From the NCBI GenBank assembly GCA_021372295.1, contig JAJFUS010000030.1, positions 1 through 64,000 of the forward strand: DNA of 64,000 nucleotides, given 5' to 3'. The DNA comes from a bacterium. GTDB lineage: Bacteria; Armatimonadota; UBA5829. Below, piece after piece: positions 37,972 to 59,002 of this stretch. The notes under the pieces were generated by a model. That model was not told the origin of the DNA. It saw only the letters and a program-made list of their open reading frames with translations, and did no database searches. A program made the translations under genes and the position numbers. The first letter of the stretch is position 1. Every line of letters begins with the position of its first letter.

Positions 37972-40900
37972 TTACACCGGCGGTTCCTGCTCTTTATCCG
38001 CGCTCTTCCTTGGACGACGGGTATACGTGCGGCGTTTCTTCTTCGGCGGCTCCTCGCTGGGAGTTTCGGATACCGGCTGGGCAACAGGCTCCTCGCGAGG
38101 CTCGACCGGCGCGGGAGTCTCCACATAAGCCTCCACGACTGCCTCGGGCTGCGCGTTGGAGTCTGGTTCGGGTTTGATCGTCGAGCGCCGCCTGCCTCCG
38201 CGATGCGAACGTCTCCTGCTGGATTTCTTTGAAGCTTCGTCGCCTTCAGAAGACTCTTCCGGCGAGGCAGGTTTGGTTTCGACATGCGACTCGGCTTCAA
38301 CCGCATCAATATTCGCTGCCTGCACCTCGGGTTCGGTGGAAACATGTTCGGTTACCGACTCTTCCGGCGCAGCCTTGGAGCGGCCGCGGCCGCGGCGAGA
38401 ACGTCTCCTGCGTGACTTCGGCGCAGATTGATCGGCTGGTTCGCCTTCTTCAGTCGAATAAGTTGTCTCGGAAATTACTTCGCCTTCTGAAACTAGCGGT
38501 TCCTGCTCTTCATTTTCGGCCGGAGCTTGCGCTATTGCCGGCTCTTCCGGCGCAGCCTTAGAGCGACCGCGGCCGCGGCGAGAACGTCTCCTGCGCGACT
38601 TCGGCGCAGCCTGATCGGCTGGTTCGCCTTCAGTTGCAGGGGCTGCCTCGGGAGTTATTTCGCCTTCCGGAACCATTACTTCCTGCCCTTCAGGCTCGGC
38701 GGGAACTTGCGCTATGGCCGATTCTTCCGGCGAAGTCCTGGAGCGACCGCGGCCGCGGCGAGAGCGTCTCCTGCGCGACTTCGGCGCGGCCTGGGCGGCA
38801 AGTTCGCCTTCTTCGGTCGAAGGGGTTGTCTCGGGAATTATCTCGTTCTCACCGACTGTCGCGTCCATTTCGGGAGCGGGCAGCATCTCGACCGGCATTT
38901 CCGTGTCCGCAACTTCGACTGCCTCGCGCGCGCCCTTTGCACGCGATCTTCCCGACTTAGTCCTCTCGCCGCGCCGGCTGATAGTCAGGCCAAGGCTTCT
39001 ACGCGCGCGTGGGGAAAGCTCTTCCAACAGCTCGACTATAGGTATTGGGCTGAGCTTGGAAGAATCGTCCACAAGCTTGGGTTTCGCGGGACGGGATGCC
39101 GTTACCTTGATCTGGTGGCTTCCGCCGCCCAGCGTGACCAGCCCAGACGGATTGCTCTTGCCGTCCACCGACACTTTCGCGTTCATCAGCAGGGGTGGAT
39201 ATACGTCGACCTTAAGCCCGTCGGGAACCTGCGCGTCAATTGTAAACACTCGCGGGGTAGACCGCCACTCGATTGTGAGAGGGCCGGTTCTTGTCGCCAC
39301 CGTGCCTCTGGCCCACTTGAGACCGCCTTCATGAGGCGTCACGGAAAACCTGTGAGATCCCGGCACCGGCTTGATACCGACATATTCGGCCAAAAGATCC
39401 CTGGTGGGCCCCGACGCCCATCCGTGACATCCGCTTCCCTCGCGGTCGAAGAACTCGTGGAACGTGCCGTCGCCTGACTTCACAATCGCGCCCCACTTGG
39501 AGCATATAATGTCGAGCGCTTCCTTGTGGCGATCCATCGAATAAAGGACTTCCAGCACGTGAGACATAAAGAACGGAGTGGCAACCGCAGCCGCCGAATC
39601 ATTCAAAATCCAGCGGATAATCGACGCTTTCTGATAGTGATCCGGTATATCGAATAGCGCGGCGAGTATGTTGGACTGCCCGCTGAACTTGTCACCTATT
39701 TTGCCGTCGACCAGGCTGTCCGCGTAAAGTCCGTGCTCGGGCGAGTAGAGATACTTGTTGACGGCAAGCCTGAGCTTTCGAGCGGACTCTTCATATTCCT
39801 CGGCGTCGCTTGTCCTGCCCAAAATCGAGGCCAGCGCGGAGGAAACCCGCAATGCATGATAGTGCAGGCAATTGAGAGATGTGAGGGTTCCCTGCCGTTC
39901 GATTTGACCCGAATCTATGTACGGCCATCCCGGCACGTCGGCGATCAGGCCGTATTCCCTCTCAAAACGCGCAAACCATGTCATAAGCCGCCGGACATTG
40001 GGGTAAAGCTCGCGAACCAGACCCGAATCGTCTGAAAAAGCATAGTAATCGAGGATCGAAAACACCCAGTACAGCGCAAAATCAGGAACAAGCTTGTCCC
40101 CACCGCCGGGATAAATGCCCATGACCGCTCCGTTGCGATCCTGCGTCCCGGCGATCTGCCTGAGACCTCGCGCAAGCAGAGTGGTATCGTTGAAAGCGTA
40201 ATACGCCGCGCGCGATTCGACTCGCACGTCCGCCCACCACTGCGCTCTGTCGCGGCCGGGGCAGTCGATAAATGTATCTTCCATGCACAGCTTGGCGGTA
40301 TACGCGCCTGTTTTCCAGATGTCGTTGACCAGATCATCGCTGCACTGGAAATCGCCATTCATCTCGACCGGATAAGTGGTCTGGTTGACCCGCACATGTT
40401 CCAGCGCGACCGACTTCGAGCACCTGCGGAACTCGATCTGCAGATATCTGAACGCGCGCGGCTCGAAGCTCTGCCAGTCTAGCCGGCCCTTCTTGAGGAT
40501 CACGCGGTCGGCATGTTTCAAGCCCAGGCGGTTGGGCTTTACGCGGCCATCCTCCAGAACCTCGCTGTAACCTAGGTCTATTGTGCCAGTGCCCGAGCCA
40601 CCGATGCCGATCTCGACATTGCCGAACACCTCGCGGCCGAAGTCGAGAATGATCGCGACGCCACGGTCGCCTCTGGGCGTCTTGACGTGGGTTGTTCCAT
40701 TATCCGCAAGCAGCGATTCGGGGTTCTTTACGTTCCCGGCGGTGAGGTTTGAAAGCTCCGAGGATGCCATTATATCGGCAATGGTGTCGATTGCGACATC
40801 TTTGCCTCGGTCGGGCGAGTTATACAGCCCAACTATCGACGCGGGCAAAACCTTTTCTTCTCTAAGAGCAGGAATGCCGCGCTCTATGAGATCGCCCCAT

Positions 40901-41538
40901 GGAGATTCGGGGGGAACGCCGACTATCACCGCGTCCTCCCAGCCCTTTTCCTTGAACTTGACCTCGTTCCAGCCATCCATCCGGCCGGCGCTGTCATAGA
41001 CTTCCTGGAAACCCAGGCTTTCGTTGATGCGGGCGCCCTGGTCGGTCCAATCGTCAGCGCGGTGGACTTTCCATGTGTCGTCGGTGACTATTACCTGCTT
41101 CTCATCGCCTGTGGTAATTTCGGCTCTGCATATCAACCCTGGACGGCGAGCGAGGCAAAACGAGGTGTCTTCCCCAAAGTGATGCGCCAAAAACGCGATG
41201 ACGTTCTTGCCTTTTTTGAGCAATTCCGTGATGTTGTATGAGTCGTAATAAGTACAGTTGCCCGCGCTGCGCGATACGCCCTTGCCGACGTAATGGCCGT
41301 TTACAAACACTTTGTAACGGCTGTCTGCGGCGGCCATAAGCACAGCCTCGGTTGGCTGTGAGGTTAGATCGAACACCTTGCGCGAGTAAAGATAGTAATT
41401 GCGGGCGGCCTGGTCGCCTTGAATCCATATCCAGCTGCCAAAGTCTGTCCGAACAGGCATTTGATTGCGCGAACGCCCGCGACGCGATCGGCGAGAACCG
41501 CTTTCTCCACCGACTATCGACATAAAAGGTTCCAGCAT
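37972..41538 (-). CDS. GH78-like glycoside hydrolase with arginine-rich C-terminal repeats
   Basis: A 1188-aa protein. Residues 30-250 form a beta-sandwich (KVFVNGHYVGKG, VIAFLAHHFGE); residues 350-900 carry an alpha-L-rhamnosidase (GH78)-type six-hairpin domain (FIDCPGRDRAQWWADVRVESRAAYYAFND; a DCPGRD active-site motif with Asp where Glu is common). Residues 950-1188 are low complexity: three copies of a roughly 60-residue unit containing PKSRRRRSRRGRGRS, separated by Glu/Ala/Pro spacers, then more basic clusters. The N-terminus also has SRRSRRGRSRNQ and no signal peptide, so it looks cytoplasmic. The basic tracts resemble RNA-binding tails of degradosome proteins. Confidence 0.85.
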   Translation of the reverse strand: MLEPFMSIVGGESGSRRSRRGRSRNQMPVRTDFGSWIWIQGDQAARNYYLYSRKVFDLTSQPTEAVLMAAADSRYKVFVNGHYVGKGVSRSAGNCTYYDSYNITELLKKGKNVIAFLAHHFGEDTSFCLARRPGLICRAEITTGDEKQVIVTDDTWKVHRADDWTDQGARINESLGFQEVYDSAGRMDGWNEVKFKEKGWEDAVIVGVPPESPWGDLIERGIPALREEKVLPASIVGLYNSPDRGKDVAIDTIADIMASSELSNLTAGNVKNPESLLADNGTTHVKTPRGDRGVAIILDFGREVFGNVEIGIGGSGTGTIDLGYSEVLEDGRVKPNRLGLKHADRVILKKGRLDWQSFEPRAFRYLQIEFRRCSKSVALEHVRVNQTTYPVEMNGDFQCSDDLVNDIWKTGAYTAKLCMEDTFIDCPGRDRAQWWADVRVESRAAYYAFNDTTLLARGLRQIAGTQDRNGAVMGIYPGGGDKLVPDFALYWVFSILDYYAFSDDSGLVRELYPNVRRLMTWFARFEREYGLIADVPGWPYIDSGQIERQGTLTSLNCLHYHALRVSSALASILGRTSDAEEYEESARKLRLAVNKYLYSPEHGLYADSLVDGKIGDKFSGQSNILAALFDIPDHYQKASIIRWILNDSAAAVATPFFMSHVLEVLYSMDRHKEALDIICSKWGAIVKSGDGTFHEFFDREGSGCHGWASGPTRDLLAEYVGIKPVPGSHRFSVTPHEGGLKWARGTVATRTGPLTIEWRSTPRVFTIDAQVPDGLKVDVYPPLLMNAKVSVDGKSNPSGLVTLGGGSHQIKVTASRPAKPKLVDDSSKLSPIPIVELLEELSPRARRSLGLTISRRGERTKSGRSRAKGAREAVEVADTEMPVEMLPAPEMDATVGENEIIPETTPSTEEGELAAQAAPKSRRRRSRRGRGRSRTSPEESAIAQVPAEPEGQEVMVPEGEITPEAAPATEGEPADQAAPKSRRRRSRRGRGRSKAAPEEPAIAQAPAENEEQEPLVSEGEVISETTYSTEEGEPADQSAPKSRRRRSRRGRGRSKAAPEESVTEHVSTEPEVQAANIDAVEAESHVETKPASPEESSEGDEASKKSSRRRSHRGGRRRSTIKPEPDSNAQPEAVVEAYVETPAPVEPREEPVAQPVSETPSEEPPKKKRRTYTRRPRKSADKEQEPPV
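38360..38830. repeat. Three tandem coding repeats (about 180 bp each)
   Basis: Within the GH78-like gene, a block carrying CCGCGGCCGCGGCGAGA and the following bases ends near 38400, 38583 and 38763, giving periods of about 183 and 180 bp. The translated units share an arginine-rich motif followed by an acidic spacer. Recent tandem duplication is likely. Confidence 0.8.
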
Positions 41539-41599
41539 AAGTATATCCCGGCCCGGCGCCGGTCAGCATCCTTTCCACGGATGAAAATATCGCGCATAC

Positions 41600-47887: not shown

Positions 47888-50800
47888 CTAATTCAGTATC
47901 AGCTGCGGCGGTGTATCATCATCTAAGCTCTGTGTGCCAACGTCCATAGAGCTCAACGAACTTGACGCTTTCGGCGCCGGCGGCGGCGAATCCAACTCGT
48001 CCAGAGTCAATTTCTCAGAGTTCATAGAACTCAGAGAACTCGTCGAAGCCGTGTCTTCGCCGTTGTAGCTGGTGTCGGGATCGATGACCAAATCACAGGC
48101 CACAAATGCCTTGATCCAATATCCATACCATGCCTTGAGCACTCTCTCTGCGCCGGTCATCGTAGAATGAACCGCTGTATACTCGTAGTTTGAAGCGTCC
48201 CATCGCCATGCATAATCGCGAATCAAGCCCGCAGCCTTAGCCTCGGCTAGCGTATATTCTACGTTGAGGTACTTGACCCTGAGTTCGCTGATCGGAATAC
48301 CCACGTCTACCCTGGGCGTGATGATATTACCGGCAGAATCCGTCTTCCAGTTAAAGAAGATGTTTCCAAACTGGTTCCACCCTTTCGAAAGCGGAATCTC
48401 GCACGGAGCGGTCTCGGTGCCTCCAACGTTATTAGTTTCGGTTTCATACGCTTTCGCATAGACTTTTATGAGCTTATATTCATCAGTGAAGTCGAGAGCA
48501 GTGCCCTCGTTGCCGACTGCAAGCATACCGCTCTGATAATCAGACGAGTTGATTGACTCGGTCGGATAACTCGATTTAGGCTTGATCCAGACAGCATAGC
48601 CCGGCTGCAGTGCAGGGAACGAACTCGCCACTCCGAACTGGAGGTATTTCTTTGAGTCCGCATACCAGTGCACAACCTGCATCAGAGTCGCCCTGGTTGC
48701 GCCGAATAGGGCAGCCGGGTCGCCGGAGCCGATATTCATCGGCGGGGTAATCATATCCACCACCGAAGCGCTGTCCGCGTCAGCCGGGTTCTTGATACAC
48801 ACCGACCTCATCGGTCCGCCAACAACCACACTCCAACAGTCGTTCACGCCGTCGGAGTCATCGTCGGTCTCAATTGCGTCCCAGGTCGAGTCACCGCCCC
48901 AAGCGGCGCTGACATACCATTGTCCACTGGAACTCAACGTAATGCTGTCTCCAGTCACCAGCGCCGCATCAGCGCCGGATGGATAACTGGACACACTCAC
49001 TTTTCCGACCCAATTAACAGTATCTGTATTCTCAGTGTCCGAAAGCATCGTTACCGACCCAATCAGCGACACTGTCGATCCGTCAGGCTTCGTCAATACG
49101 ATGGTCACGTCGCTGAGGCCCTCGGGTTTACCGGTGACGTCGTTCCTGGGGAACAGCATTCGCCCAGCCACGACTACTTCCTCGGCTACCACTGCGGTCG
49201 AAACGCCGGCAGCCAAATCCGGATCAGATGACGAAGCGCTCACCACTCTTAAATCATCAAAGAACGGAGTAAGCACCACGGGGCCAACTTTCGTGTCAAC
49301 CGCAGATGCGCTGTCCCAGCCGTCGCTCGCCACCACAGTATAGGTGTGCTTGCCAATCCCCAAGTTACTCCCCACTATCGAGGTAGTGTATATGACACCA
49401 TCTCCATTATAGTCGGTATCCGTTGATGAAGCTTTGGTCATCGTGTATGTAGTTGCGCCATCCACGATCAGTTTCAGCCCCTCGACCTTGCTCGTGCCAG
49501 AAGTGGTAACAGGCGGATCATTGTCGCCATCGAAATACGTTGCCGAATAGACAAACTTCGCACTCTGCTTACCCGCAGCCGGGCTTACCGAATAACTGGT
49601 TATTGTGGGCGCGATATTGACGTTTCTGACCACGAGTTTGACAGTTTTTTCTACAGGATCGGCATCCTGATAGCCATCCGAGGCATTAAAGACTACATTG
49701 TATGTCCCCATAACGAGGCTGGACAATGTGCCGGAAAACACAGCACCCTTCGCATAAACAGGACTGCTATCGACAGCATTCAAAGTAATGTCATAAGGAT
49801 CCTGAGTTGAGTCGTTAACATTCGTCAGACGAACAGTGACGACAGGCAACTGGTCCTTCGTACTGTTGTAGTCGCTATCGGTATATGTTGCGGTAAACGT
49901 AAATGTCGTCGCAGGTTGGCCGGATGCCGGTGTAAACGACGTATCTGTAAGTGTAGGCTTACAGTTCACAATAACGCTATAGTCATTAGCCGAACTGGCC
50001 GGGAACCGAACCTTATGGTCGGGGTCGTAGCCGTCGGAACCCAGGAAGTGATACTTGTGCGTGCCTCCCGACAGATCGGACTTCGTGAGAGTAAAAGCAA
50101 CATCCGATGTAAAGCTGCTCACCGAGGAGCTAAGCGGCAGCATTGTGGTTCCCTCGGTATCACTGTCGAACACAAGCTGCAAATAACCCGTTACGCCGTC
50201 ATGATAGGCAGGCGGATCGTTATCGGCATCACTGTAGTTGACTCTGAACGTCAGCGGGTCACCCTGCATGAACACAGTGCTGGTACTGGACTTATCAAAG
50301 TACATCACGTACATCGGCGGGATCACACCAAGATCAGGCATGTAAGCAATATACACGGTATCCGTACCGCTTGGAAGAGCCGTTGCAAGAGTAATCTTCG
50401 AATCGCCCAAAGAACCGGTCGTTGCGTAATAATTGGTACCGGTGAGCTCTGAATTGTCGTAAACTCCTGTCACAGTTGCGATGGCGCTGATTTTGTCAGG
50501 AATCACGGAAGACAAGTCATCTCCGACAGTGCCCAGTTGCACAAGCGCTACTGCAGGAATCGCGCTGATTGGCGATTTAAGCGCAATCGGATAGCTGCTC
50601 AACGACACGGACGTATCGAATGTCTGACTCGTATCGTAAAGGTTATCATCTGTTCCGTAAACCGCATTCGCGCTCCAATATACGCCCAGAACTTGCCGGA
50701 TGGCCTGCACCAGTGGGACCGTCCAGTTACCCGTGGCGCTGCAATCCAACGCTACCTCACTCGAAGGAATTGAGGCCAATGTGCACATCTTCACCTTCGG

Positions 50801-53800
50801 GCCGGAATACAGCGCGGTATCTTCAGTGTTGCTCAAAACCGGCGCGGCATTGCCGGTCGGCACGGTAATAACTACCGTTGGCCCAGTGCTGGCGGTATCC
50901 GGGTACTCCACCTTCGGATCCGAATACGGTATCCAAGTGCCCGCCGCATATTCAGTGGCATACAGCCAGTCGGGCATGGTCACCCGGCTTCTGGCCGTAA
51001 ACTGATACTTATGCGACCCAACCGCCAACTTGGGCACCGTAAGAAGATAAACACTTCCGGAAGCATAACTGTTGGTATCCTGTCGTATCATCAGTAAGCC
51101 ATTGACAGTGAATTTTACACCCAAAGACAAGTTGTCACCGAGCGCGCCTAGGTCGTCAGTTGACACCGTAAGAGTGTTCGACGTATTGCTGCTGATTAAA
51201 TAGCACCTGTACTTCAGATCGCCGCTGGTAATCTGCATTACTTTACCAGCAAACTTATCCGCAGTCCAGTTGGGAGTCGTGCCGTCGATGTTTTTCGCGA
51301 CAATAGTGCGCTTCTTCGACGACTCAATCGGATCCGCCGCCAGACTATCGACTACACCCAACACCAGCGTGTCGTTGTCACTGGCATCGATCCAGAGCCT
51401 AGGAGATCCTGTCTTATCGTCACCCTTAGCAATGCCGTTTAACGTATCGGTGGCCGAATTGTAGAAATACGGCTCATCTGCATCACTATCACTGTACGTG
51501 ACCTGGAACGTGGAGCTGTCGTCCTGCGAAATCGTCCCTGAAGGGCTGACTGAAGCATTCGAGAGCTTCGGCCGATCATTAACGAACGGGCCGTCAATAT
51601 CGACATAATAATCAACGGAACCCTCACCCGGCCTGTCTGTCCCAGTATACGTATAGTTGTCATAAATAGCGACATCGGCCCCGTCCGAAGCTTCAAACCG
51701 ATAGGTATGACTGTTCGCGCTGAGCTTGGTCGTATATGTATATGTCGCACCGTCACGATAGACAGGGGTACCGTTTTCGGCACAGGTCATATCATAAGCA
51801 ACATCATCGATATAAACCCGCACATATTCCGGAGCCTGTCCGTACGTTCCATCCGTGTCAGTATATTCGATCGTGTATGTGAAATCTGTGGTGCTTTCGC
51901 CCTGCAAACCCGAAATGCCCCGGGACATGCCACTTGCCAAGCTCAGAGTTGGAGCGGTATTAGCGCCGACCGTCTCGGGCATTTTGGTTCCAAATGCATA
52001 AGTGGCAGTGACGCTCGAAGTGCTGTCGACCGCATCAAAGAACTCGATTTTGCGGTTCCAACGGTCGATCTGATAGTCGCCCGCTTGATAATAGCGCGCC
52101 CAGAGGTCTTCGCTGCCTGATGGTACATCATCGGTAAGCCGCATGTGGATCTCATTGTTTGAATGAGTCCCCGCGAGCCACGGATCGAAATAGTTCACGC
52201 CATTGGAATCACTCGTAACCCACACACCGATTACGCCGCCATCAACACAACCGTCAATGCCGCCTTCGTTATTGTTACCATCATTACCCTTAATATGAAT
52301 GTTGGGGAGATTGGTTTCAGGGTCCTTGTTATTCCAGCCGTCCGGGCTAAAGTAATCCGTGCCGGTAGTGTAAGTGCCGCTGGTGTCCGGCGCCTGAGCC
52401 TCACCATCGCAAGTATGAGTGAAACGAATATCCGAGTATTTGATATAGACGGTCTGGCCCGCCGTCGGCAGGCTGGATGTAAGGGCTATCAGCGAGTCTC
52501 CGGCGGCAAACGCCGATTTGGGAATATACTTGATATATACCAGGGTGCCAGAAGGCTTGACCGTTTTCAACGTGATTGAAGACTTAACCGTAACTACACC
52601 GGTACTCGAATCCGTAGTCGTGGTGTAATATATGTCTCCTGTGGTCTCAAGCTTTGTTGTATATTCCGAATCGGAGTAGACGCCGACCACGCTCTTTATA
52701 TTGGTCACAGAAGATAGATCAATCGTTTTGCCGTTCGTACCCACCTTACATGTCGAATTGCTGCTATAGGCAATATACTTGATGTATACCGTCGAGCCCA
52801 CATCCCGTGCAGTCTGCAGCTCTATGTTGCCGCCAGTAGCAAAACCGCCTGTCATCTCAAGCTTGGTAGACATTGCCTCATCCTCATATACACCCAGCAC
52901 GGTCCGTATCATTGCGGATGAAGCCGGCTTAACCGTTGTATCGGGGTCCGTGGCACCGATCACAGTGCCGGTCATAGCGGACGGGGTAACGGCTGTCCAT
53001 TGATAATAATTGTCGGTATCGCTTTCTAAATCCGACATACTATCGTAAACACCCTCGACGCTTCCAATAGTCGACGCATCATCAGGCGTAACATACCAGA
53101 CCGAGTCTGCGCTCTCGGAGTCCACAGCAGTACCATTCATTGCCGAATAACGCTTATCTTCATCGGCACCCGGGTACGCCGGAATGGGACGCTGCCAGCC
53201 ATTTTTCAAATCATCTACCAGCACCGAGGTGCCACCTACATATACTTGGGCATCAGAGATAAGCTCGGACGGAGCGTCTCCCGGCAGTGGCCCCAAAATC
53301 GGAGACCGTGCCTGATACTTCAGCCAGACCTTGGCAACATTCGACGCTAGGTCTTTGGTCAGAGTGACGGTCGTTTCACCCGCCACATACGGATCACTTG
53401 CCGTAGCCGGGTCATAATAGTTGTCACCGGTCAGATCTTCCGTCAGATATACGCCCTTAAGCTCTAGTATGTCGTCAGGATTGCTGGGAATGCAAGTTTT
53501 AGTCGAACCGCCGGTCGTTGCGTATTGAGCGATTATCGGATCAAAATGGAACTCGGTGTCCGAAATTCGTGTCAGGGCGCCTTCATCCATATCTGCAGTA
53601 AAGCAATTGGCCGCGTTCGACCGGTTAGTGCTGTTCGCGGACGACTTATACGTCGCCCAAAGGTACCCGTCGTTGAACATAAACGCATAATAGTACTGCT
53701 TGCCGTTTTCATCGCCACTGAGCCTGGTCTGATAATAATACGCCTTGCCGTCTTTATATATTGTGTCTGTGCTGTCGCTGGCAAGAAGGTCATGACCTTC

Positions 53801-56800
53801 GTCCCAAAGTATAGTCTTATCATCCGGCTGGAGCTGCCCGATAAGGATCTTGTGAACCGAAGGAGCGTCATCATCATAATCCGCGTAGGTGACGCTGAAT
53901 GTCCAAAGACTCGCCGGGTTACTGCTGCCATCCTTCGATTCGACCGACCCATTATAGGCTCTGGGTGCCGTGTTGTCCTTTACTACAGGCCCTTGTATCA
54001 CACCGGTGGTTACCGACTGGCCTTCAATGCGATCATTCGTGCCCACCTGGCGGCCCCAATCGTCTGTGAAGACCATCTCATAGCTGCGCGTGCCTGACGC
54101 CAGAATATCGCTGTCCACAGTAGACAAATTGTAGTAATAATATACGCCGGCCTTGTATAAAGCCGAGTTATTCGCGCTGTTATCAATTGTCGGCATCGGC
54201 AACATGTTACATGTGATTTTATCGCCGGCGTTATTGGTCGTAATGATTAACTTTGCACTGTATGGTCTCTGACCATCCGCATCCTTGTAAAGCACCTTAT
54301 ACTGGAAAGTCGTCCCCAGCTTGCCGCTGGTAGGAGTAACCGAGTTGTTGGTCAAGGTCGGCGCGGTATTGATGTAGGGACCCGGCACGAAGTCGTTGTT
54401 GTCATAGTCGGTATTGATGACGCCGCCCGTCATATATTCGTCCGATGTGTTTTTAGTCGGAACCCACCAGTCTTCCCAGTCCATGCCATTGTATGAATAG
54501 TAATCTGGACGCCTTGGCCATATCATTGTCTGATTGCCGTCGCTGGCCTTGAACAAATAATTATGCGGCCCCGGGGTCGGTAACTTAGTAGTATATGTGT
54601 ACCATACGCCGTCAGTGAAATCCAGATCTAACGCATCCTTCTTCGCCATTGTGTAAGAGGTATATTCATCCGTAGACATACTGCCGCGACTTTCGGCATC
54701 GGCTATAAGCAGCTTAATGTATGGCGGGCCGGATCCGTCCCTGGACTTGTACATTATCTGGAATGTGCATTCGGTATCCGTTGTTGCACCGGCTGTCTCA
54801 GCGCGCCGTGCATCAAAATCACGGATTTCGGTTGTATCCAGGTACGTGCCGTCCATCTGCGGGTTCATAGCACGCTTGAAAGTTTTGCTGGTGCCGCTTC
54901 CGCTGCTGAAAAGCAGCGTGCCGTAATACCGGCCGCCGCCGTATTTGTCCTCGTCCCTGTAGCTGACGAGCACGTCGTCGTAAAGGGGCACAGTCAACTG
55001 CCCGCCCACCACGGGATGCTCGGTGGCAGGATATAAATAGCTGTCACCGAACTTGCCCGGCACAAGCACAGGCCGGTCAACAAGAAGGGTCGAATCGAAG
55101 GCATTCTTGCTATCCGAACTGTATATGCGATGCGCGTCGCGGTCGATACGCGGATTGCCGGTTACCGCCCTCGCGTTTGTCGGGTCAAGCGGGTTATTGT
55201 TTGCCCGGAACGGAAATGTGGTAAAGTCCGGCGGGTTTGAGTAGCCAAGAGGTGCGGCGGGGTCATCATTTCGGGTCCACGGAACAAATCCCCATTCTTC
55301 ATCAGTGGCGTCAGATGGAACCTGCGACCAGTCCACAGTCTGCGGGACGCTCCAATTACTATTGTGCACAAGCCAGCTTAAAACATGTGTATTACCCGTA
55401 AGTAACGTCTGCTTGACTTTGTCGGTATAAGCCGTAGGTATTGTCCATTTGTAGTTAACATAACCGTCCAGACCCCACTCTTGAGGGACAGGCTGATACT
55501 CAAGAACAAACGGCGCAAATCGTGGATAATCGGTATCGGGATCGTACCCAAGAACATCTTGACCAAAGATTTGATCGCCATCACCGGTTTTATAGCGATC
55601 CAGGAAGCGCAGCCAGTCGTCACTGCAGGCAAAGAAATAGTTGAAGGTTCCCACCGGCAGCGAATTGTATGCCCACGTGGAATATGCCGGGAAAAATGCC
55701 TTGTCATATTCAGTAAACTCCGGCTCGGCCAGACCGTCGCTGGGCATTATACGAGCAATGAACGTTGTTCCTGGTTCCCCGGTCCAAGCATCGCCCACCT
55801 CACCGTCACCGTCAAGATCCGGAAACAGACCATCTATCGTCCGGCCGCTCACTTCCGGCATCATGGGTATCAGGCGGTAGTCGCCTATCCCCCAAACGTC
55901 CAAATACAGCGCCACGCCGAAATCGCTGACTTCCATATAGTCGTACGACGAATAATTGACGCTGTGCCACCATGGCATCGGCGGCAAATTATATTTATTA
56001 TGATAGATGCATCGGAACACGAAAGAATGACTGCCGGAAGCGTCGTCGCCCGTAACTCCACTTCCGTCGCTGCTCGGCTCGATCGTGAGCGGATCTACCC
56101 AGGGCGAGGCACGGAGCTCATCAGTGTCGTCATTTCTGCCGCCGTAGTTGATCATCTCATAATAAGTGCTGCCGTCTGAAGCTAGCTGAGCGTTGGCGCG
56201 GCTGTCATAGATGGTCACAACTTGTTTAACTTCCTGACGCTTGGCGGTAATGTCCCCATAAGCGTATGCTGTGACTTCAACAAGATTAGGTATGTCATTA
56301 CCGCCTGAATACAGGGCGGAAGCATACCACACTGGAATGCGTTTGCCACCACATGTATATGGAGTCCACAAAAGGCAATTCAGGCTTTCATCGGGACACC
56401 ACGTGGAAATATCAAAAGCATTAAGATTTGGCAGATTATCCGTGCTACTAAGGTGTGTGTACGGCTGCTGTTCTAAATCGGCCATATTCAGACCGCGGCT
56501 CACGCAAGCAATATATGCCTTATATGTAGTGCCCTCTAGGTCAACATCCATACAATAATACATGGGAATGCCGATAGACACATTATCTTTATCTGCATAT
56601 GAGCCGCCAATATCTAAACACACAATCCCCGGGTCCATTATGCCTTCCTTGTTGGTAGGTGAAGGATTGGGATAAGTATCATCTTGCCACAACGCAAGAA
56701 ATGTGTACAGCGAATTGGCTGTGCCTTTCGTTGGCACTGTAATCAGTTTTGAATAAAAGCCCGCATCCGCATTCGACGCCATAATTAATGCAAGCGCCAC

Positions 56801-56845
56801 TACCGCGATTATCTGCGTTATAGAGCGTTTCCAGGATTTAATCAT
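47888..56845 (-). CDS. Giant Ig-repeat surface protein (about 2985 aa)
   Basis: An exported protein with a signal peptide (VALALIMASNADAG). After a roughly 800-residue head without a clear family, it has at least seven Ig-like repeats of the form NxxPxLxxxSVxPxxG...YSDxDxDxP...G.HxYxFxASDG. Interleaved are at least five modules of the form VxGVYxxxxxTxxxY...ALPSGTxxVYIxY. About residues 2640-2900 form the GWN...GYW domain shared with two neighbours. A Ser/Pro/Asp tail has the word SSLSSM twice. No LPXTG, SLH or T9SS-type sorting motif was seen. The ATG at 56845 was chosen with AAGGA eight bases upstream. It probably forms an adhesive or structural surface fibre. Confidence 0.85.
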   Translation of the reverse strand: MIKSWKRSITQIIAVVALALIMASNADAGFYSKLITVPTKGTANSLYTFLALWQDDTYPNPSPTNKEGIMDPGIVCLDIGGSYADKDNVSIGIPMYYCMDVDLEGTTYKAYIACVSRGLNMADLEQQPYTHLSSTDNLPNLNAFDISTWCPDESLNCLLWTPYTCGGKRIPVWYASALYSGGNDIPNLVEVTAYAYGDITAKRQEVKQVVTIYDSRANAQLASDGSTYYEMINYGGRNDDTDELRASPWVDPLTIEPSSDGSGVTGDDASGSHSFVFRCIYHNKYNLPPMPWWHSVNYSSYDYMEVSDFGVALYLDVWGIGDYRLIPMMPEVSGRTIDGLFPDLDGDGEVGDAWTGEPGTTFIARIMPSDGLAEPEFTEYDKAFFPAYSTWAYNSLPVGTFNYFFACSDDWLRFLDRYKTGDGDQIFGQDVLGYDPDTDYPRFAPFVLEYQPVPQEWGLDGYVNYKWTIPTAYTDKVKQTLLTGNTHVLSWLVHNSNWSVPQTVDWSQVPSDATDEEWGFVPWTRNDDPAAPLGYSNPPDFTTFPFRANNNPLDPTNARAVTGNPRIDRDAHRIYSSDSKNAFDSTLLVDRPVLVPGKFGDSYLYPATEHPVVGGQLTVPLYDDVLVSYRDEDKYGGGRYYGTLLFSSGSGTSKTFKRAMNPQMDGTYLDTTEIRDFDARRAETAGATTDTECTFQIMYKSRDGSGPPYIKLLIADAESRGSMSTDEYTSYTMAKKDALDLDFTDGVWYTYTTKLPTPGPHNYLFKASDGNQTMIWPRRPDYYSYNGMDWEDWWVPTKNTSDEYMTGGVINTDYDNNDFVPGPYINTAPTLTNNSVTPTSGKLGTTFQYKVLYKDADGQRPYSAKLIITTNNAGDKITCNMLPMPTIDNSANNSALYKAGVYYYYNLSTVDSDILASGTRSYEMVFTDDWGRQVGTNDRIEGQSVTTGVIQGPVVKDNTAPRAYNGSVESKDGSSNPASLWTFSVTYADYDDDAPSVHKILIGQLQPDDKTILWDEGHDLLASDSTDTIYKDGKAYYYQTRLSGDENGKQYYYAFMFNDGYLWATYKSSANSTNRSNAANCFTADMDEGALTRISDTEFHFDPIIAQYATTGGSTKTCIPSNPDDILELKGVYLTEDLTGDNYYDPATASDPYVAGETTVTLTKDLASNVAKVWLKYQARSPILGPLPGDAPSELISDAQVYVGGTSVLVDDLKNGWQRPIPAYPGADEDKRYSAMNGTAVDSESADSVWYVTPDDASTIGSVEGVYDSMSDLESDTDNYYQWTAVTPSAMTGTVIGATDPDTTVKPASSAMIRTVLGVYEDEAMSTKLEMTGGFATGGNIELQTARDVGSTVYIKYIAYSSNSTCKVGTNGKTIDLSSVTNIKSVVGVYSDSEYTTKLETTGDIYYTTTTDSSTGVVTVKSSITLKTVKPSGTLVYIKYIPKSAFAAGDSLIALTSSLPTAGQTVYIKYSDIRFTHTCDGEAQAPDTSGTYTTGTDYFSPDGWNNKDPETNLPNIHIKGNDGNNNEGGIDGCVDGGVIGVWVTSDSNGVNYFDPWLAGTHSNNEIHMRLTDDVPSGSEDLWARYYQAGDYQIDRWNRKIEFFDAVDSTSSVTATYAFGTKMPETVGANTAPTLSLASGMSRGISGLQGESTTDFTYTIEYTDTDGTYGQAPEYVRVYIDDVAYDMTCAENGTPVYRDGATYTYTTKLSANSHTYRFEASDGADVAIYDNYTYTGTDRPGEGSVDYYVDIDGPFVNDRPKLSNASVSPSGTISQDDSSTFQVTYSDSDADEPYFYNSATDTLNGIAKGDDKTGSPRLWIDASDNDTLVLGVVDSLAADPIESSKKRTIVAKNIDGTTPNWTADKFAGKVMQITSGDLKYRCYLISSNTSNTLTVSTDDLGALGDNLSLGVKFTVNGLLMIRQDTNSYASGSVYLLTVPKLAVGSHKYQFTARSRVTMPDWLYATEYAAGTWIPYSDPKVEYPDTASTGPTVVITVPTGNAAPVLSNTEDTALYSGPKVKMCTLASIPSSEVALDCSATGNWTVPLVQAIRQVLGVYWSANAVYGTDDNLYDTSQTFDTSVSLSSYPIALKSPISAIPAVALVQLGTVGDDLSSVIPDKISAIATVTGVYDNSELTGTNYYATTGSLGDSKITLATALPSGTDTVYIAYMPDLGVIPPMYVMYFDKSSTSTVFMQGDPLTFRVNYSDADNDPPAYHDGVTGYLQLVFDSDTEGTTMLPLSSSVSSFTSDVAFTLTKSDLSGGTHKYHFLGSDGYDPDHKVRFPASSANDYSVIVNCKPTLTDTSFTPASGQPATTFTFTATYTDSDYNSTKDQLPVVTVRLTNVNDSTQDPYDITLNAVDSSPVYAKGAVFSGTLSSLVMGTYNVVFNASDGYQDADPVEKTVKLVVRNVNIAPTITSYSVSPAAGKQSAKFVYSATYFDGDNDPPVTTSGTSKVEGLKLIVDGATTYTMTKASSTDTDYNGDGVIYTTSIVGSNLGIGKHTYTVVASDGWDSASAVDTKVGPVVLTPFFDDLRVVSASSSDPDLAAGVSTAVVAEEVVVAGRMLFPRNDVTGKPEGLSDVTIVLTKPDGSTVSLIGSVTMLSDTENTDTVNWVGKVSVSSYPSGADAALVTGDSITLSSSGQWYVSAAWGGDSTWDAIETDDDSDGVNDCWSVVVGGPMRSVCIKNPADADSASVVDMITPPMNIGSGDPAALFGATRATLMQVVHWYADSKKYLQFGVASSFPALQPGYAVWIKPKSSYPTESINSSDYQSGMLAVGNEGTALDFTDEYKLIKVYAKAYETETNNVGGTETAPCEIPLSKGWNQFGNIFFNWKTDSAGNIITPRVDVGIPISELRVKYLNVEYTLAEAKAAGLIRDYAWRWDASNYEYTAVHSTMTGAERVLKAWYGYWIKAFVACDLVIDPDTSYNGEDTASTSSLSSMNSEKLTLDELDSPPPAPKASSSLSSMDVGTQSLDDDTPPQLILN

Positions 56846-56950
56846 ATGAGTCATCCTTCCAAACTCCGCCCATCCCATAAAGACAGGATAGGGAAATATT
56901 AATATATTCAGTTGCGCTGCCGGATAATTCTCATCGGCAGGCTATAAGAA

Positions 56951-58951
56951 TCAGTATCCGCCCGATAAAGACGAGACGCTTGAGTCCGGCCATATAGACG
57001 GTCTGAACACCAATGTAACCGTCTTCTTCGCGCGAACCCAGTAGCCTTTCCAGGGTTCAATCAGACAGTCATCGGTTTTTATTCTGTCGTATGCCGAAGT
57101 CTCCTGATTCCAGCCGTATATTGTGCGGCTAATCCAGCTTTTTTGGACGGCATCCGCAAATGAACAAGTGGTATTTGTCGATTCGTTATAGACCATCAAC
57201 TGGCCTACATATATTGGATAGACGAACGGGTTACCCACCATGTTCCAGCCCTTGCTCAATTCAACGTACTGCTCCTTGCTTTGTTTACCGTAAGACTCTC
57301 CAAGGATAGACGCATCATCCGCAATGTCATAAGCTACCGTCTTGCCGGATTTTATCGCGTGCACCTTCATCCAGAAACCCTGCCCGGACTCAACATTATC
57401 TAATGAAATATAATCCTTCGTATCGACGGCGTCATAATACAAAGCGCTGAACAAACCGGCAGTCATGCCAAAAACATGCTCGATACTCGGGTTGTTAAAC
57501 CCAAACGGAACGCTCACCATCTGATAACCGTAATTCAACACTTTGCGTTTGGCGGCGGGAACCATAATAGTCCGGCTCACTGTCTGCTGCCAGCCGTTGG
57601 AAGAGGTAAACACCACGTAGTATTCCAGCTCGCCACAATACTTGCCGTTAGGCACGACGCTCCAGGACACTGCAGTCGATTCGGTGCCAATCGGGACATT
57701 ACCAATTTCCTGCGCCGCGCTGGAAGTGGAAGCCAGATCCAACCCATCCGGCAAATACAGATATGCCGATACATCCTGGAGTTCGTAATTCCCCGGATCT
57801 ACACAAGTATTGTACACATACGCACTGATCGTGAACGGACTTGGCGTAAGGTCATCCTCAGGATCGCCCGTATCGTTGGTGCTGCTGTCAAACCTGACCG
57901 AACCCGGCCCCTGAACCGCCGCGACCGCGCTGTCCTGCTCATTATCGCTGCCTGTCCACACAGAGGAAGCTACGCCAAGGCCATAATATGTTACATACGT
58001 GCGCGACTTGCCCGCGCCCAGGGAAGCCTGCTTCCACTGAAGGAGATAGGCTGCGTCGGTAATGGGCACCAGTTCATTCGGTGCATAACCATCGGGCAGC
58101 CACACGCTCACACCAGCCAGATCTTTAAAATTACCTACCGCAATATAGTTAGGCGCAGTGCAATCCTGCTGATCCAAAATACAGCGCGCCACACGCACCT
58201 GATCGTCAACAGTGTCGTAAATATCAAAAAGGTCTGGAACATGGGTGCCACTCCAAATCGTTCCAGGGAAAGCATCTTCACTCTCGGATGTGCGCGAAAG
58301 GCCGATGCCGGAAACAAACGGATACTCGCCGGAGTCGCTGCTGGTAACCTGAACATCGCCGAGCATCGCTAAGCCGATGCTCTGAGTGGTCTTGCTCTTG
58401 TTGGTCACCGTCAACTCGTACCTGATAAGGTCGCGCACAAGACTTGCGTGTATCGTCACACTGACAGCCGGGTCGTCTGCAGTCACCCATGTCCCCTCCA
58501 GATATGGGCCGCCCACTCCAAGAGTGTTGCCCGCTGTTGGAGTCGAATAGAGCGTAGGCGGATTAGTGTCCGACCAAGCTCCGCTGCCGTCCGAGCCCGA
58601 GCCTATGAGCACGGGGGTATCATCACCCACCTTCACTTTCCAGTAGGCATAGTAATACCTCGGATACGGAGCGCCATATGTCATTGCGCAGTTGTTGTCT
58701 TCGTCAGTAGTGGGGTCTCCCGTCTTTGTCATAACCGCGTAACGGCCGGGAACTTCCCTTGCAACTTCATTGCCGTCGGCATCGTACTCGGTGTAGGTTC
58801 CCTTAACACCGAGCGTAAACCGTATATATTCGTTGGACAGCGAAAGATCTTCATAGTCAACCGAGGGCCCGAGGGTAGCGAATGCGTTATGCCCCAGAAG
58901 CACCCCAAATAACAGAATGATCGCTGCAATCACAATTTTCCTATGATTCAT
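56951..58951 (-). CDS. Exported surface protein with C-terminal GWN...GYW domain
   Basis: A 666-aa protein with a signal peptide (IVIAAIILLFGVLLGHNAFA), a beta-rich body (DLIRYELTVTNKSKTTQSIGLAMLGDV; a VCDPGNYELQDVSAYLYLPDGLDLA-like segment near residue 450) and a C-terminal duplicated domain: YQMVSVPFGF...GQGFWMKV, then SKGWNMVGNPF...EPWKGYWVRAK. The body is similar to sugar-binding or beta-sandwich surface proteins but has no motif I can name. The ATG at 58951 has GGAGGAG upstream. It lies between the subtilisin and the giant protein and shares the C-terminal domain with both. Confidence 0.82.
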   Translation of the reverse strand: MNHRKIVIAAIILLFGVLLGHNAFATLGPSVDYEDLSLSNEYIRFTLGVKGTYTEYDADGNEVAREVPGRYAVMTKTGDPTTDEDNNCAMTYGAPYPRYYYAYWKVKVGDDTPVLIGSGSDGSGAWSDTNPPTLYSTPTAGNTLGVGGPYLEGTWVTADDPAVSVTIHASLVRDLIRYELTVTNKSKTTQSIGLAMLGDVQVTSSDSGEYPFVSGIGLSRTSESEDAFPGTIWSGTHVPDLFDIYDTVDDQVRVARCILDQQDCTAPNYIAVGNFKDLAGVSVWLPDGYAPNELVPITDAAYLLQWKQASLGAGKSRTYVTYYGLGVASSVWTGSDNEQDSAVAAVQGPGSVRFDSSTNDTGDPEDDLTPSPFTISAYVYNTCVDPGNYELQDVSAYLYLPDGLDLASTSSAAQEIGNVPIGTESTAVSWSVVPNGKYCGELEYYVVFTSSNGWQQTVSRTIMVPAAKRKVLNYGYQMVSVPFGFNNPSIEHVFGMTAGLFSALYYDAVDTKDYISLDNVESGQGFWMKVHAIKSGKTVAYDIADDASILGESYGKQSKEQYVELSKGWNMVGNPFVYPIYVGQLMVYNESTNTTCSFADAVQKSWISRTIYGWNQETSAYDRIKTDDCLIEPWKGYWVRAKKTVTLVFRPSIWPDSSVSSLSGGY

Positions 58952-59002
58952 ATTAACAATCTCCTCCCCGCCCACTAAGGAACGGCCTCTTGCACAACAA
59001 TC

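Follow-up and report, generated by a model that had tools for sequence, protein, structure and literature searches.

This locus raises the question of what a rhamnosidase-type protein that lacks an export signal does with a long tail in which stretches rich in arginine take turns with acidic ones. The features first reported for it were confirmed, and their interpretation was borne out in part. The gene lies in a 56-contig draft genome of 2.65 Mb, and the window, by which we mean the whole stretch of 64,000 nucleotides analysed, contains it complete. To answer the question, we consider in turn the core and its cellular location, the tail, the active site, and the partners that the tail could have.

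A GH78-type protein without an export signal

By architecture the protein belongs to GH78. All four domains of the family are present, in order and above the Pfam cut-offs (PF17389 at E 6e-36), 2OKX matches at E 4e-88, and a Foldseek search with the window model gave the GH78 rhamnosidases 2OKX and 3CIH as top matches. Structure prediction had been suggested as a check with the original prediction. The AlphaFold model, made from a shallow six-sequence alignment and with a mean pLDDT of 49.6, has a folded core barrel and a disordered tail, residues 818–1188 being below pLDDT 50 throughout. The basic stretch that had been reported at the N-terminus, resembling those of the tail, is also there (SRRSRRGRSR), and most orthologues have basic counterparts.

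The protein had been described as lacking an export signal, with a signal peptide from a different start as the finding that would overturn this. Assessed by eye and by hydrophobicity, the N-terminus of the window protein has no Sec-type hydrophobic core, and the frame upstream of the ATG stays open for just 8 codons. In six orthologues (G003, G004, G006, G007, G011, G013), CTGNRATAAT is found 5–6 nt before the ATG; the loci with this element upstream of the GH78 gene are L047, L048, L051, L021, L054 and L052. Its sequence and position suggest an extended -10 promoter at leaderless-mRNA distance, pointing to leaderless mRNA in the lineage. With the promoter directly before the ATG in these six, a translation start farther upstream is therefore not expected. 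The 8-codon frame, the N-termini and the promoter position in orthologues together rule out a signal peptide from an alternative start, and none was found. The protein thus lacks the signal peptide of an exported carbohydrate-active enzyme and, for that reason, is apparently cytoplasmic.

Five orthologues have a short, hydrophobic and amphipathic N-terminus (for example MLESLVSSILPIVG; moment p 0.004–0.022 versus shuffles), followed in several of them by a basic cluster. This segment is not a Sec signal but could touch the membrane, thus raising the possibility that the basic ends anchor the protein at the inner membrane face, an N-terminal amphipathic helix and then arginine-rich stretches contacting acidic lipids. 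We find such anchoring decidedly unlikely, as the N-terminus of the window protein is not significantly amphipathic (p 0.35), outlying orthologues have no amphipathic segment, and the acidic blocks would be left unexplained.

Table 1. Positions in the window of the gene, its domains, its active-site elements and the parts of its tail
Feature	Position	Strand	Basis
GH78-like protein with charge-block tail, 1188 aa, ATG to stop	37972..41538	-	ORF and Pfam
PF08531, rhamnosidase N-terminal domain, aa 61-210	40909..41358	-	Pfam
PF05592, concanavalin-like domain, aa 295-371	40426..40656	-	Pfam
PF17389, six-hairpin catalytic domain, aa 394-708	39415..40359	-	Pfam; helices in AlphaFold model
PF17390, rhamnosidase C-terminal domain, aa 723-790	39169..39372	-	Pfam
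N-terminal basic stretch RRSRRGRSR, aa 16-24	41467..41493	-	Sequence
Region directly upstream of ATG, degenerate copy of putative promoter	41539..41560	-	Orthologue comparison
General-acid motif DCPGRDRAQWWAD, aa 425-437; Asp430 is general acid by alignment	40228..40266	-	Alignment; spacing per PMC12838782
Glu695, general base, aligned with Glu841 of 2OKX	39454..39456	-	Alignment
Disordered charge-block tail, aa 818-1188 (about 370 aa)	37975..39087	-	pLDDT <50 and charge blockiness
Conserved short motif VELLEELSPRARRSLGL at tail root, aa 835-851, short predicted helices	38986..39036	-	Orthologue comparison, model
Basic block 1, PKSRRRRSRRGRGRS, aa 919-933	38740..38784	-	Sequence
Basic block 2, PKSRRRRSRRGRGRS, aa 979-993	38560..38604	-	Sequence
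Basic block 3, PKSRRRRSRRGRGRS, aa 1040-1054	38377..38421	-	Sequence
Basic block 4, around SRRRSHRGGRRRS	38189..38227	-	Repeat register and charge patterning
Terminal basic block KKKRRTYTRRPRK, best conserved element of tail	38005..38043	-	Orthologue comparison
Tandem DNA repeat, period 180, 2.7 copies, score 664	38355..38840	.	Tandem Repeats Finder

Anatomy and conservation of the tail

The three copies of a unit with PKSRRRRSRRGRGRS, separated by acidic spacers, were found as first reported, about 180 bp apart. At the protein level the copies are identical, their DNA differing at 2–3 codons per pair, all synonymous, and the spacers that flank them carry 4–9 amino-acid changes per pair (windows of 15–16 codons). 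The original prediction took the repeat for a recent expansion. The period of about 180 bp stands, in-register copies being spaced by 183 and 180 bp, but the units are only 68–80% identical over 180 nt and each relative has copies of its own in another arrangement, so that 'recent' is correct only in part. The description of the tail as arginine-rich and basic likewise holds for its blocks but not for the whole: the last 348 residues have 63 K+R against 66 D+E and are net neutral. The window tail is a blocky polyampholyte, not a cationic tail. Measured in 10-residue windows against 300 composition-preserving shuffles per tail, its charge segregation lies 14 standard deviations above the shuffles.

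No match to the repeat-bearing last 280 residues was found in Pfam or the PDB. At least two dense basic blocks occur in no other of the 196 ORFs of the window and related loci, and a search with the tail in 28 genomes of the class (E 0.001) returned orthologues only; neither search showed the tail in another protein of the lineage.

Orthologues occur in 13 further genomes of Armatimonadota, giving 14 proteins with that of the window. In a search of 41 genomes, close orthologues were found in the window's genus (G001–G004), in four other genera of its family (G005; G006, G010 and G013; G007 and G011; G009) and also in G015 and G017, which belong to another family of the order; none turned up in genus g5 or in a third family. 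When the search was extended to 201 genomes of the phylum, the only further relatives at the threshold used were the tailless G046 and G180. In maximum-likelihood trees, a branch with 100/100 support separates all tail-bearing proteins from the tailless homologues. Public matches are Armatimonadetes MAGs, namely UBA5829 L005 (the window's genus), identical in sequence to the G002 contig, and the LacPavin MAG L004, identical to the G005 contig. The protein is a lineage-specific, GH78-derived protein of Armatimonadota with a single-clade distribution. Some tailless homologues have evident signal peptides (L023, L024, L026, L029, L079); the others, from Paenibacillus, Cohnella and elsewhere, have neither signal peptide nor tail, and in the former respect the Paenibacillus and Cohnella relatives are like the window protein.

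Presence of the tail in orthologues had been proposed as a check, and its absence as a refutation. In 12 of the 14 proteins, the window's included, charge segregation exceeds all 300 shuffles (z 4.5–14.3), with net charges of -5 to +16 over 205–407 residues. The remaining two, G006 and G010, have a short tail (about 65 aa) that is basic and without acidic blocks. The tail is thus kept, and the objection that orthologues lack it fails.

How far this reflects function can be considered from what varies and what does not. The number and spacing of basic blocks, the length of the tail and the spacer sequence vary widely among orthologues, and two members are nearly without a tail. This is what a neutral or solubilising disordered extension would look like, one that grows and shrinks by repeat slippage and has no specific partner. 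We regard that explanation as improbable, because the basic blocks of the window stay identical with synonymous change only, because a terminal KKKRRTYTRRPRK-like block and a VELL(D/E)-type (VE-h-L) motif at the tail root recur across genera, and because the same architecture is common to two families of the order. Comparison of G003 with G004 gives dN/dS values of about 0.09 for the core, about 0.16 for the tail and about 0.12 for the basic blocks, which are rough because dS is near or above 1. They suggest that the tail and its basic blocks evolve under purifying selection.

The active site and its erosion

Asp425, Asp430, Asp437 and Glu695 of the window protein align with Asp567, Glu572, Asp579 and Glu841 of BsRhaB, numbered from the alignment to 2OKX; we take these four BsRhaB residues to be important. 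In GH78 the general acid can be Asp or Glu; BtRha78A has Asp335 and Glu595, with a motif running from Asp330 to Asp342 (PMC12838782), and Glu636 and Glu895 are named for SaRha78A (PMC7263609). The window motif, at 425, 430 and 437, has the same spacing as that of BtRha78A. Because general acid (Asp430), general base (Glu695) and motif spacing are all present, the window protein is plausibly active.

A feature that the original prediction did not mention is erosion of this site within the clade. The general base is Glu in 14/14 tail-clade proteins, and the general acid is kept in 12/14, G003 and G004 having Ser instead. G001, G006, G009, G010 and G013 have Thr, Ala or Glu in place of the first Asp, and G007, G011, G015 and G017 have Glu, Asn or Ser in place of the third. 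Consequently all four acidic residues are found in only three members: G000 (the window genome), G002 and G005. Tailless homologues outside the paralogue group keep all four in 20/21 cases, a count that includes sequences lacking the motif used for first selection, and tailless paralogues of the same lineage do so in just 3/6. The active site is thus eroding in many tail-clade members and, since only half of the tailless paralogues are intact, this trend belongs to the lineage and is not limited to tailed proteins. One such paralogue in the window's genome, L072 (G000:C23:20900-24300), is missing the general-base region, and its acid motif has changed to EDGVFCEHSD; erosion is also seen in L071 and L073, and all three are possible pseudo-rhamnosidases.

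A tail kept on a carbohydrate enzyme that lacks an export signal, and whose active site is eroding in several species that retain the tail, would suggest that organisation of the condensate type extends beyond RNA decay. In its strongest form, the glycosidase fold would have become a condensate-forming scaffold, a pseudo-glycosidase around which cytoplasmic RNA or some other polyanion is organised. On this view the tail would be what is retained as catalysis is eroded in some descendants, in bacteria with a tailless RNase E/G; we consider such a scaffold a long shot. The clade offers a natural series, from intact enzyme with tail through eroded enzyme with tail and short-tailed protein to tailless paralogue, along which the two functions could be told apart experimentally.

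Possible partners of the tail and comparison with known systems

In the window an aldose-1-epimerase-like gene lies on one side of the gene, and a divergent regulator of PAS/GAF/SpoIIE type on the other. Farther along, at 47888-58975 (-), are consecutive ORFs of 2996 and 674 aa with no Pfam match at E 0.01. Neighbours differ between genera, ruling out a conserved operon, and no link to RNA metabolism was seen in the neighbourhoods of orthologues. In genus g3 the gene adjoins polysaccharide genes (loci L052 1-11717, L054 291-7914 and L057 2-5212): it is downstream of genes for an O-antigen ligase, a glycosyltransferase and a DUF3485 protein in G006, divergent beside Wzz and polysaccharide-export genes in G013, and beside a heparinase II/III-like gene in G010. 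As GH78 domains act on rhamnosides, the tail might bind an anionic glycan or precursor and hold the core on a rhamnose-containing polysaccharide during the making or turnover of exopolysaccharide. However, the linkage is seen in g3 only, two of whose three members have the shortest tails, such neighbours are absent from the window and from the readable rest of genus g1, and there is no export signal. Attachment to a glycan therefore seems unlikely to us.

We tentatively lean towards a different reading, in which a GH78-type core without an export signal is joined to a disordered tail that acts as a multivalent electrostatic sticker. The rhamnosidase-type core would bind or cleave a glycan inside the cell. 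In the tail, where arginine-rich blocks alternate with acidic, Pro- and Ala-containing ones, basic blocks would bind acidic blocks of other copies, leading to self-association, and could also bind cellular polyanions, RNA being the likeliest partner by its abundance. Such binding would gather the protein into assemblies, the behaviour proposed for RNase E with its C-terminal charge blocks. Self-association, polyanion binding and any role in RNA or glycan metabolism are inferences; judged by the design of the tail alone, multivalent self-association with polyanion binding is the best-supported reading. In bacteria, charge-block tails are known mainly from RNA-decay proteins.

The nearest solved proteins, BsRhaB from Bacillus sp. 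GL1 (2OKX) and BT_1001 (3CIH), have the same domain order and acid/base positions as the window protein. Known GH78 alpha-L-rhamnosidases differ from it in having no such tail, and from many members of its clade in the state of the active site. The tailless paralogues of the same bacteria (L068–L073) are likewise GH78-like, without a visible signal peptide and in part eroded, but they lack the arginine-rich tail and form a separate clade. The claim that a repeated arginine-rich and acidic tail is unlike known glycosidases agrees with the open-licence papers searched, among which we found no rhamnosidase or other glycosidase with one.

The resemblance to tails of RNA-degradosome proteins, also proposed at the outset, is borne out by Caulobacter RNase E, whose disordered C-terminal region consists of alternating arginine-rich and acidic blocks that are proposed to drive condensation with itself and RNA (PMC10412687, PMC12510024). 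In NCBIfam the tail touches one model only, weakly and over a segment of mycobacterial RNase E (E 7e-5; 20.7 bits, far under the cut-off of 1400). Because low-complexity tails resemble each other by composition, this match is probably composition-driven and not evidence of homology. Nor is the tail derived from the lineage's own RNase E/G, which in seven of these genomes is a separate gene with no comparable tail. Of the features of an RNase E-type degradosome scaffold, the window protein has the disordered C-terminus with its alternation of charge blocks (charge test, AlphaFold) and not the RNase E/G catalytic domain (Pfam). Caulobacter RNase E, of the BR-bodies, is thus the nearest published analogue, likewise a catalytic protein with a disordered C-terminal run of alternating charge blocks; the window protein has no nuclease domain, and the likeness is one of design, not of sequence homology.
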